NCBI GenBank assembly: GCA_029932675.1
Contig: JAOZPP010000094.1
Coordinates: forward strand, 1-7,568
DNA from: a bacterium
Lineage (GTDB): Bacteria; SM23-81; DAOVCL01
Direction of reading: 5' to 3'
Length of the DNA: 7,568 bases
Shown: positions 2,561 to 6,675 of the stretch, piece by piece
How the letters are laid out: the number at the start of each line of letters is the position of its first letter
How positions within the stretch are numbered: the first letter of the stretch is position 1
Made by a program: the position numbers and the translations under genes
The notes under the pieces: generated by a model
What the model was told of the DNA's origin: nothing
Database searches by the model: none
The model's input: only the letters and a program-made list of their open reading frames with translations

Positions 2561-2583
2561 AAAATAGGAAGTGTCCCTATTTT
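2561..2583 (-). terminator. Weak intrinsic terminator at the end of mlaD
   Basis: An 8-bp inverted repeat (AAAATAGG 2561-2568, CCTATTTT 2576-2583) with a 7-nt loop overlaps the mlaD stop codon. On the minus-strand transcript the second arm ends in a run of five U. Only two G-C pairs stabilise the stem, so it may be inefficient. Its position right at the end of the operon supports a terminator role. Confidence 0.4.
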
Positions 2584-3550
2584 AAAAGATTTTTAGCTTA
2601 AAATACCTCTTCGGGTTCTTCTTGATGTCCTTGATCAGCTCGTCCAGATCCTTTATCGTTTGGCTGAGATCCTGGTAAAGCTCTTCATCCTGGGCCAACC
2701 TCCCGGCCGTCCCCTGGCCCCTCTCTATCCTCTCAGAGATAGAAGAAATCCTTCCCACCAACCCGGTGAGATTGGTATATAGTGTCGTATCTCTCACCAT
2801 CATGCCCAGGGTCCCCTCCCCCCGCTGCAGGCTATCGGAGAGGGAACTCAGGGAGACCAGGAGACTGCTGAGATTTTTATAGACTGCGGGATCGTTAAAA
2901 AGTTGGGCGATAGTTCCTTCTCCACCCTCCACTTTTCCTGCCAATCTTCTGGCCAAGGCCAAAACCTTATCCAGCCGAAAATAGATGGTTGTGTCGTTGA
3001 CCATCTTCCCTATGGTCCCCTCTCCCCGGTTTATCTTCTCGGCTATCTCCCTGGTGGATTTAGACATCGCTTTCAGATCATCGAAGACCTTAACCCCCTC
3101 CTCGATGATTTCCTCAATATCCACAGGGGTCGAACCCCGGAGATAATCCCCCGGCTGGAGAACAGGCTGATCTATGGAACCTAAGGTGATATTCACAAAC
3201 TTGTCCCCCAAAAGGCCCAGGGTCCCGATATGGGCCACGGAATCCCTCCTAATCCTTGGCTGTACCCGCCGGTTTATCTTCAGGCAAATCTCCACCTGCT
3301 TTCTCTCCAGCCCTTGAGGGAAATCTATGCTAATCACCTTCCCCACATTAAGCCCAGCCAGCCTCACCGGTGCTCCCACCTGTAGGCCGTTTACCCTATC
3401 CATTAAAACCCTGAGCTCATATCTCCTCTGAAAGAGACCCTGGTGTTTCCCGATGGATAATATCATCCCTGCCAGGAAGAGGATGCCCACAAAGATCAAA
3501 AAGCCAACCTTTAATTCCCGGGATGATAACCAATGCAAACTCTTTTTCAT
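2582..3550 (-). CDS. mlaD: MlaD-type MCE-domain protein of a phospholipid transporter
   Basis: This 322-residue protein has a short cytoplasmic N-terminus and one membrane anchor (about 14-33, VGFLIFVGILFLAGMILSIG). An MCE domain follows (about 43-125), with the typical stretches VNGLQVGAPVRLAGLNVGKV (53-72) and IGTLGLLGDKFVNITLGS (108-125). In the MCE family such proteins form hexameric rings that carry lipid between the inner membrane and the periplasm. The C-terminal third holds four repeats of exactly 34 residues, starting at 176, 210, 244 and 278 with G(E/Q)GT, and ends in NPKRYFKLKIF. It is longer than E. coli MlaD because of these repeats. The ATG overlaps the mlaF stop by one base (TAATG), so translation is probably coupled. 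The weak terminator at 2561-2583 follows. Confidence 0.9.
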   Translation of the reverse strand: MKKSLHWLSSRELKVGFLIFVGILFLAGMILSIGKHQGLFQRRYELRVLMDRVNGLQVGAPVRLAGLNVGKVISIDFPQGLERKQVEICLKINRRVQPRIRRDSVAHIGTLGLLGDKFVNITLGSIDQPVLQPGDYLRGSTPVDIEEIIEEGVKVFDDLKAMSKSTREIAEKINRGEGTIGKMVNDTTIYFRLDKVLALARRLAGKVEGGEGTIAQLFNDPAVYKNLSSLLVSLSSLSDSLQRGEGTLGMMVRDTTLYTNLTGLVGRISSISERIERGQGTAGRLAQDEELYQDLSQTIKDLDELIKDIKKNPKRYFKLKIF

Positions 3551-4281
3551 TATTTACCTGCCTGGTTGGAAATGAACTCTCTCACAAAGGGGATCTCCGT
3601 CCTCTTTAGCTCCTCCACCGTCCCTGAGGTCAAAATTCTTCCCTCATGGATCATTGCCAATCTGTCGGCGACCATATAGGCGTTGCGAATCTCATGGGTA
3701 ACCACCACGGAGGTCACCCCGAATTTGGTCTGCATCCTCCTGATCAATCTGTTTATCCTCTCTGCGGTAATGGGGTCAAGGCCGGTGGTTGGCTCGTCGT
3801 AAAGGATATACTCTGGCTCTAAGGCTAAAGCCCGGGCCAAGGCCACCCTTTTCTTCATCCCCCCGCTGAGATTGGAGGGCATCAGGTCCTCTGTCCCCTC
3901 CATCTCCACCAAGGCCAGTTTCTCGGCAACCTTCTCCGCAACCTGTGCCCTGTTTAGCTTGGTGTGCTCCCTCAAGGGATAGGCGACATTCTCTGCCACG
4001 GTGAGGGAATCAAAGAGGGCACCCCCCTGAAAGAGCATGCCAAATTTCTTTCTCACCTCAGTCATCCTTTCCTCTGAGATCTGGGAGGTATCCCTTCCGT
4101 CAATGATTATCTTGCCGGAATCCTGCCTCATCAACCCCAAGATGAGCTTCAAAAGGACGCTTTTACCACAACCACTCCTCCCCAAGACAACCAGCGTCTC
4201 GCCCTTGATCACGGATAGGGTCAACCCCTTAAGAACCTGCTTTTCGCCAAACGATTTATGGATGTCCAGAAGCTCAATCAT
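3550..4281 (-). CDS. mlaF: MlaF-type ABC transporter ATP-binding protein
   Basis: This 243-residue ATPase should power the MlaE permease in phospholipid transport at the cytoplasmic face of the inner membrane. All catalytic motifs are present: Walker A GRSGCGKS (34-41), Q-loop Q85 in LFQGGALFDSLTV, signature LSGGMKKR (138-145), Walker B YILYDEP (158-164) with D162 and E163, D-loop GLDP (167-170) and the switch histidine in VVVTHE (H196). LSGGMKKRVALARA and the GALFDSLTV stretch are characteristic of the MlaF/Mkl subgroup rather than generic importers. It starts 21 bp after mlaE, with AGGA six bases before the ATG, and overlaps mlaD by one base. Nothing looks degraded. Confidence 0.93.
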   Translation of the reverse strand: MIELLDIHKSFGEKQVLKGLTLSVIKGETLVVLGRSGCGKSVLLKLILGLMRQDSGKIIIDGRDTSQISEERMTEVRKKFGMLFQGGALFDSLTVAENVAYPLREHTKLNRAQVAEKVAEKLALVEMEGTEDLMPSNLSGGMKKRVALARALALEPEYILYDEPTTGLDPITAERINRLIRRMQTKFGVTSVVVTHEIRNAYMVADRLAMIHEGRILTSGTVEELKRTEIPFVREFISNQAGK

Positions 4282-4302
4282 AATAGTTCCTTCGCCTCTG
4301 GC

Positions 4303-5076
4303 TCAAGTATAGGTGAGAAAGGCCAAAAGGAGCTTCCCCAGGAAGAAGTCAACGATGAGGATGGAAATAGAGGAGACCACCACGGATCTGGTTGTTGCGC
4401 TACCCACCCCTTTTGTGCCCCCACTGGTGGTTAACCCATAATAACAACCCACTAAGGAGATGATAACCCCAAACACAATTGGTTTTATCACGCCGGTGAG
4501 GATATCGTCCATAGTCACGGCATCAAGCACGGTCTGCTTGTAAATCCCCGTGCTGACCCCTATACTCCAGAGGGAAAGCAGCCACCCCCCAAAAATGCCT
4601 ACGATATCCCCGATCACGGTCAGTACGGGGAGCATAACCACAGTAGCCACAATCCTGGTGGCCACAAGCTTTTTGATGGGGTTTGTCCCCAGGGCCCGCA
4701 GGGCATCTATCTGCTCGGTGACCTTCATCGATCCTATCTCCGCTGTTATCCCCGCCCCCACCCTGCCAGCAACCATCAGGGCCACCAAAACGGGCCCCAT
4801 CTCCCTGATCATAGAGGTACTCACCAAGTTGCCCACATACATCTTCGCCCCAAATTTGGCCATCACTATCCCGGACTGCAGGGCCAAAACCATACCGGTA
4901 AAGAGGGTGGTAAGGAAGACTATGGAGAGCGAATTGACCCCAATAGAGTCCATCTGCTCGACGATGTCCCCGAGGTAGGGGGGCCTTTTTATCCCATACC
5001 TGAGGGTTTTCAGGAAAAGCTCGCCCAAACCATAAAGGGCCCTGAGAAATCTAAAAAAAGCCCTCTCTTCTTTCAT
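4303..5076 (-). CDS. mlaE: MlaE-type ABC transporter permease
   Basis: This 257-residue integral membrane protein of the MlaE (DUF140) family matches the usual length of about 260. An amphipathic N-terminus (about 1-45) precedes several hydrophobic segments (about 48-69, 92-108, 143-171, 198-215 and 232-254). The family hallmark is the loop region REMGPVLVALMVAGRVGAGI (91-110) followed by TAEIGSMKVTEQIDALRALG (111-130). It would form the transmembrane core under the MlaD ring, with MlaF as its ATPase. The ATG at 5076 has a purine-rich AGAGGG about 13 bases upstream, rather far for a strong ribosome binding site. It is the first gene of the mlaEFD unit and lies 92 bp after the radical SAM stop, across a long inverted repeat. 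Confidence 0.93.
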   Translation of the reverse strand: MKEERAFFRFLRALYGLGELFLKTLRYGIKRPPYLGDIVEQMDSIGVNSLSIVFLTTLFTGMVLALQSGIVMAKFGAKMYVGNLVSTSMIREMGPVLVALMVAGRVGAGITAEIGSMKVTEQIDALRALGTNPIKKLVATRIVATVVMLPVLTVIGDIVGIFGGWLLSLWSIGVSTGIYKQTVLDAVTMDDILTGVIKPIVFGVIISLVGCYYGLTTSGGTKGVGSATTRSVVVSSISILIVDFFLGKLLLAFLTYT

Positions 5077-5168: not shown

Positions 5169-6203
5169 TTACCTCAAAAACAACCGGAGGATATTCAAGC
5201 CAACCTCTGGCTGGAAATCCCAGAAAAGGGATGACTCAATCGTTCCCGCATCCACACAGCGGAAACAACCTCTGGCCCTCTTCTGAAGTGATCTCATCCC
5301 TTCGCTTCTTAGAATGGAGCTCAGTCTCTCCTTATAGACATTTCCCAGAGGGTTCTTCCTATCGAGGCAGTTGGTCACATCGCCATTGGGTTCCACTCGG
5401 ATGAATACCCTCTTGCCATTGCAGTTGTATCTGACCACACCCTCCTCGAACATCCTCAGATAGCTCAGGGATTTGTTTACACATTTTCTACCCTTTTTTA
5501 ACTCCCTGATCTTGCGGAAGACCTCCCTCTCTTTCTCCCTGGAAAGCCGAAAATCTAAGGGTTTTGACCCATCAGGGCGCGGAAACTCAGGTTCCCCCCT
5601 GTTCACCGACTCAAAAGTCACCGCGAGGTCCATCTCCTCACATAGTTTAACTATCCTTTCCACCCAGGGATAAGTCAGTCTGCTGACTACGGTGTTTATA
5701 AAAACCTTCAACCCAGGATTTCGGCCTCTGACCAGATTTATCCCCTGAATGGCCCTCTCAAACAGACCATCAACTCCGTGCAGTTCATCGTGTTTCTTAG
5801 AGGGGATATCGATGGAGACGATGAGGAAATCTAAATTGGAGGAGAGCTCCCGGTAATATTTGGGCATCAAATAGCCATTGGTCACCAGCCCTGTCACTAA
5901 ATCCAGCCTCTGGCAGGTCTCCAATATCTCAAAGCTATCCTCCCTGAGCAGAGGCTCCCCACCCCAGAAGGCCGTGCCAATAAATTCCTCCTCCCTTGCC
6001 TGGCTGTAAAAATCTATTATCTTAACGGTGTCCCTCTCCTCCGGTGAATCTCCCCTCCAGAGGCAGGTAGGGCAGCGGGCGAAGCATCTAGCGAAGCTTT
6101 GCCTTAAACCGTCCAGTTATGGCAGCATATACGGGGCGAAGCTTCGAATGTAGAATTAAGAATGAAAAAGACCTGCAGGAGAGGAACCTGGGTCTAAGCT
6201 CAT
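5169..6203 (-). pseudogene. Radical SAM protein with C-terminal cysteine domain, disrupted 5' end
   Basis: Radical SAM enzymes use a [4Fe-4S] cluster to cleave S-adenosylmethionine; the substrate here is unknown. The frame is open from 6116 to 5169 (315 codons). It carries the cluster motif as Cys codons at 6086, 6074 and 6065 (C-x3-C-x2-C in ARCFARCPTCLW), then FWGGEPLL, VTNGYLM and LDFLIVSIDIPSK of the barrel. A twitch/SPASM-like end follows, with YNCNGKR, EPNGDVTNC and GCFRCVDAG. There is no usual start codon between the TAA at 6117-6119 and the first Cys. A good start (ATG at 6203 after AAGAGGGG) is in the same frame but meets TAA at 6156-6158. LRPVYAAITGR, the expected first barrel strand, is read in a different frame (6141-6109). 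One 22-nt insertion plus a 1-nt loss would explain this. A sequencing or assembly error is the main alternative. A TTG at 5924 would start after the cluster motif and is rejected. Confidence 0.75.
6078..6103. repeat. Quasi-palindrome at the radical SAM cluster motif
   Basis: GGCGAAGC (6078-6085) and GCTTTGCC (6096-6103) are inverted copies with one mismatch, separated by ten bases. GCGAAGC also recurs directly at 6079-6085 with G before it, at 6091-6097, and as CGAAGC inside the 10-bp palindrome CGAAGCTTCG at 6137-6146. The arm at 6096-6103 lies inside the 22 bases (6087-6108) that look inserted in the radical SAM gene. This is the pattern expected of template switching or a tiny palindromic insert. 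Confidence 0.6.
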
Positions 6204-6217
6204 AGTTCCCCTCTTAT

Positions 6218-6390
6218 CCTGAATTATTCATAAATCACTGCTATTCATTCTCAACGCCGTGGCTACCTCCTTGTAGGGACTCCGCCTTAGCGGAGTTCGA
6301 AAGGGGCGGACAGACCTGAAGGTCTGTCCCTACGGGTGATAAGAAAACCTCTGAATTACAAACTCGTCAGCAGTTTATGAACAATCCGGG
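6218..6390. mobile_element. MITE-like element with imperfect terminal inverted repeats
   Basis: CCTGAATTATTCATAAA at 6218-6234, followed by TCACTGC, is matched in inverse orientation at 6370-6390. Fourteen of the first 17 positions agree and the inner CTGC is shared. All three mismatches are transitions. The 173-bp interval has no coding capacity and carries the three-way-junction structure at 6273-6333. I see no certain target-site duplication. A single-ended relative of the terminal sequence occurs at 169-197. The left end abuts the ribosome binding site of the broken radical SAM gene. A non-mobile repeat is also possible. Confidence 0.45.
6273..6333. repeat. Three-way-junction palindrome cluster
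   Basis: GTAGGGAC (6273-6280) is the perfect complement of GTCCCTAC (6326-6333) and encloses two perfect hairpins. These are ACTCCGC-CTTA-GCGGAGT (6279-6296) and GGACAGACC-TGAA-GGTCTGTCC (6308-6329). The inner hairpins overlap the outer arms by a few bases, so the closed and open forms compete. Length and conserved bases do not fit a tRNA. Confidence 0.7.
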
Positions 6391-6675
6391 TTATTTCCTC
6401 CCCCCTGAAACTTGACACAAATTTTAAGAAGTTGCCTTATGAAGGAGGCTAGTAGTTATCAGATGGGAGACGAAAAAGGGCCGGTTATCAATCAGCCTTG
6501 ACCTGATAATGCTCCTCGTAGCCCGCAAAAATAGCCTGGTTCTCCTTATTAGCTTGGACACTCTCAGTCTCTTTCCGGGCGGTCAATCCCCCCATCTGAT
6601 CATGAGTAGGGGTTTGATTAATCGAACCCGATCAATCGGGTCGGATGAATCCGGTAGGCCGGTAGCCGCTGCAGT
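6391..6675. other. Intergenic stretch with further inverted repeats
   Basis: I see no credible gene. The 10-bp perfect inverted repeat ATCAGATGGG (6458-6467) / CCCATCTGAT (6591-6600) bounds 143 bp that contain TTATCA (6485-6490) / TGATAA (6504-6509). Beyond it, 6616-6651 forms an extended hairpin with ACCCGAT (6626-6632) and ATCGGGT (6635-6641) at its tip. A plus-strand open frame at 6509-6769 crosses this and has no recognisable product. A 35-residue minus-strand reading from the ATG at 6591 region to 6483 is charged and protein-like, but I cannot assign it. Confidence 0.5.

Follow-up and report, generated by a model that had tools for sequence, protein, structure and literature searches.

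The interrupted radical SAM/SPASM gene

On the minus strand of the window (the whole stretch of 7,568 nucleotides that was analysed), a radical SAM/SPASM gene lies in two parts separated by an insert. The 3′ part (5169-6087) begins at the CxxxCxxC motif, read from 6086, continues through a SPASM domain and ends with the stop codon at 5171-5169. This gene body is recognised in Pfam by PF04055 (2.1e-10) and PF13186 (5.2e-07), and the motif (CFARCPTC, 6086-6063) falls within the PF04055 match. Like other radical SAM/SPASM proteins it combines both elements and has an intact homologue, found in a Candidatus Latescibacterota MAG; unlike them it is interrupted and falls far below every NCBIfam subfamily cut-off shown, including that of PTO1314, the best curated match to the body. 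The 5′ part (6454-6561) comprises 36 codons running to VSHLIT, and GTG at 6561-6559 would be the start codon of the gene.

The Latescibacterota homologue (L053) was the sole relative found in genome contigs, at 60% identity, and a search for orthologues in four genomes of the phylum at E <= 1e-20 returned none beyond the window's own protein. It is an intact protein that opens MRRLTYFLRAVRKVLRTRLKGEGPFFVSHLITARCFARCPTCLW. When it was compared with the window by tblastn, its residues 1-32 matched 6549-6454 (E=2e-7), which translate to IRRTRLFLRATRSIIRSRLIDNRPFFVSHLIT, and its residues 33-336 matched 6092-5175 at 60% identity. In the protein these two matches are contiguous; in the DNA the insert, named here element A, stands between them. 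Across the junction the homologue reads without a gap (GPFFVSHLIT-ARCFARCPTCLW), with LITAR preceding CFARC. Keeping a single CTAG in the window leaves the gene in frame, as LIT-T-RCFARC against LIT-A-RCFARC in the homologue. On this comparison, the N-terminus of the gene is located about 350 bases upstream of the point at which an earlier reading, made from the letters of the window, had placed the break.

The insert is a copy of a dispersed repeat

The insert between the gene halves measures 361 bp, a length of 3n+1 that accounts for the frame change noticed in the sequence-only reading, and has CTAG at either side. One copy of this target-site duplication (6449-6452) is delimited by the alignment of element copies and by the in-frame empty site of the homologue; the other (6088-6091) by the same two comparisons and by the right ends of other copies. 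Between them, element A (6092-6448, minus strand) is a dispersed MITE-like repeat that holds two further repeats, B and C. It has no long ORF and is non-coding, and an Rfam search of the window gave no match. Its right end in the window is GCAAAGCTTCG, where other copies have GAAGCTTCGCTAG; the left inverted end of the window copy is degenerate (CTAGCCTCCTTC), with CTAGC and fragments left.

A search at the DNA level was run against the genome that contains the window, 3.03 Mb in 116 contigs. The query 5950-6260 gave 14 further matches and the query 6000-6500 gave 46, which fall into nested families; the segment 6163-6088 recurs at several other sites with 84-89% identity. About a dozen copies of element A are present in this genome, with roughly 200-370 nt between their ends. 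Both ends are found together on contigs C98 (twice), C30, C52, C55 and C48, and one end alone on C26, C25, C39, C61, C19 and C66. Nearly all right ends read GCTTCGCTAG and then pass into unrelated sequence. The copy on contig C57 has the 13-mer CTAGCGAAGCTTC at each end, as a perfect inverted pair. Copies also occur in the genome of a sister species (G001), the only other genome of the genus that was compared, where those on contigs C49 and C80 carry near-perfect inverted end pairs that contain one or two mismatches in total. Elements A, B and C are each abundant in the sister genome and were undetected in the two other genomes of the phylum that were examined.

The sequence-only reading had proposed that an insertion of 22 nt, together with a second change of 1 nt near the start, broke a gene beginning at the ATG at 6203. 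Its observations on the minus strand are accurate: LRPVYAAITGR ends at 6109, CFARCPTCLW starts in another frame at 6086, 22 nt lie between them, and the joined ITGR-CFARC does resemble a radical SAM opening. It was also right that the gene is broken at its iron-sulfur motif by an insert of 3n+1 length. The size of that insert is another matter, since the 22 nt (6087-6108) consist of the right-hand end of element A together with a single base of the gene, and other copies carry TTTGAGGCGAAGCTTCGCTAG at this place. LRPVYAAITGR (6109-6141), taken for the opening of the barrel, is translated element A, and other copies give LRPVYVAIAGR, LRPVYTARPRR, LRPIYTARPRR and LRPVYAAIARR in the same frame; the N-terminus of the homologue matches 6549-6454 instead. 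No relatives of the radical SAM protein are encoded within the fetched flanks of the other element A copies, and, judged from these translations, AITGR looks like the start of a radical SAM protein only by coincidence. The ATG at 6203, preceded by GAGGGG, is in frame with the body as claimed, but both this ATG and its ribosome binding site lie inside element A, and a stop closes the frame after 15 codons (MSLDPGSSPAGLFHS). With a single CTAG the junction is already in frame, which leaves no need for a second change of 1 nt; nor is a sequencing error called for, given the many other copies of the insert and the in-frame empty site. Since LRPVYAAITGR and the 22 nt alike belong to a repeat that also occurs at places lacking the gene, and the real N-terminus lies upstream of that repeat, the two-change explanation is refuted and retains practically no probability. 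Another candidate, a 57-nt in-frame duplication between the copies of GGGCGAAGC at 6077 and 6134, was abandoned when the dispersed repeat came to light.

Nested elements and a second empty site

Element B, of about 184 nt, is nested in A (6210-6393, minus strand) and has imperfect inverted ends at 6215-6234 and 6374-6393. Copies in the window's own genome are found on contigs C2 (95%), C104 (90%) and C35 (87%), among others. Nested in turn within B, element C (6273-6333, minus strand) was delimited by its fold and its copies and consists of two GTAG-tagged hairpins in opposite orientation (-17.5 kcal/mol, z -4.7). The element C segment alone was matched on C61, C104, C76 and other contigs, and so occurs also without B.

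A second full composite, with C inside B inside A, is present at C57:38763-39112 (loci L002/L099). The arrangement is the same there and the flanks are unrelated, which indicates that the composite moved as a unit. The left part of the C57 composite is longer than that of the window copy. In a hand count on the alignment, with indels and the unequal left end set aside, 8 of about 272 positions distinguish the two composites, a figure consistent with recent movement.

An element A copy elsewhere in the genome provides an empty site besides that of the homologue. The copy at C98:15717-15942 (L098:6218-6443) is absent at the matching place in the sister species, on its contig C102 at about 9932. 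The sister sequence reads CCAC-CTTG-TGGTTTGATCC and the filled site CCAC-CTAG-element-CTAG-TAGTCTGATCC, so that one CTTG stands where the filled site has two CTAG. This was read from direct comparison of the sequences, the MAFFT alignment having misplaced the flank. Because this copy is missing in the sister genome, the 4-bp target-site duplication is independently supported, and the two independent empty sites fix both the ends of element A and its target. The same C98 copy adjoins a putative tRNA gene (CGGAGGGAGTCGAACCCCCACCC), judged by its appearance.

Relation to known mobile repeats

Element A resembles bacterial MITEs in being non-coding, dispersed and short, within the 70-400 nt of such elements, in having a 4-bp target-site duplication, and in its ability to interrupt genes. 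Inverted ends, a further MITE trait, are seen in some copies and are degenerate on the left of the window copy. It differs from them in that no parental IS or match to a named family was found for it, and in the two further repeats that it contains. IS5 copies have been reported to be flanked by CTAA or CTAG (PMC11677980); the CTAG target of element A resembles that of IS5, a likeness that need not mean kinship. In a brief literature search no earlier description of the element A family was found, and titles and abstracts concerning repeats in Latescibacteria held nothing relevant.

The search for a mobiliser returned two partial DDE_Tnp_1 genes (PF01609) and three Y1 transposase genes (PF01797). 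None of these loci carries the ends of element A. An IS-sized pair of the 13-bp ends was not found in the window's own genome or in that of the sister species, which is weak evidence given that both genomes are incomplete. GTAG-tagged palindromes of the REP/BIME kind have been described (PMC3733652), and element C shares with them the tag at the foot of two opposed hairpins, the pairing in inverted orientation and the recurrence in many copies, in a setting where Y1 genes are present. Unlike them, it has stems that differ in sequence and are 7-9 bp long, and no Y1 locus was seen flanked by the palindrome as a RAYT would be; the palindrome had no match in the fetched flanks of the three Y1 genes.

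Origin and consequence of the insertion

The explanation that best fits these observations, and that is almost certainly correct, is that a recent insertion of a MITE-type element, A with B and C, at CTAG split the radical SAM gene and most likely inactivated it. On this explanation a non-autonomous element A already carrying B and C entered at CTAG, among the codons that immediately precede the first cysteine, and duplicated this target. The insertion splits the gene after codon 36, counted from the proposed GTG start, shifts the frame by 3n+1 and brings in stop codons. The insertion itself, its ends, its further copies and the two empty sites are directly observed; that a transposase, as yet unseen, mobilised the element in trans and that the gene lost its function is inferred. 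An assembly error, in which a repeat-bearing contig was joined to the gene, might be suspected in a genome of 116 contigs with many repeat copies, as repeats do cause mis-joins; it is nevertheless very improbable, because the two flanks belong to a single gene, follow on from each other in it and match adjacent residues of the homologue, which a mis-join would not give.

It is unlikely, too, that the insertion changed only the start of the gene and that the downstream half still works, from a non-standard start inside element A (e.g., CTG at 6116) or from a promoter supplied by the element. The body frame does run open through 315 codons if the end of element A is counted, with 305 gene codons free of stops. 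Against this, it contains no ATG, GTG or TTG from the last stop codon until TTG at 5924, downstream of the CxxxCxxC motif, and a functional enzyme is therefore unlikely. Moreover, a stop would arise from about 4.4% of single substitutions across the body, so that the frame would have a chance of about 0.44 of remaining stop-free after 2% neutral change. The intact 305-codon frame is thus compatible with a recent insertion and need not imply that the gene still functions; it could mean that the frame is still used, but a recent insertion accounts for it equally well. On the frames present in the window, the enzyme has most likely been inactivated. A further idea is that the composite, moving as a unit, excises precisely from its CTAG sites, so that the gene would be switched reversibly on and off within the population. 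Apart from the fact that such an excision would bring the gene back into frame, nothing favours phase variation, and a switch of this kind is very improbable.

Under the preferred explanation, a recent insertion of element A, what had appeared as a frameshift is instead a small repeat family caught inserting, at a mapped site, in a phylum with few sampled genomes. The case also illustrates how a repeat, when translated, may pass for the N-terminus of a known protein family. The radical SAM gene itself would be an ordinary casualty of an ordinary insertion mutation.

Genes for MlaE, an ABC ATPase and MlaD follow the radical SAM gene on the same strand (2582-5076, minus), and their expression may therefore be altered by the insertion. 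This Mla arrangement does not lie beside the Latescibacterota homologue, whose upstream neighbour we take to resemble an aspartate carbamoyltransferase.
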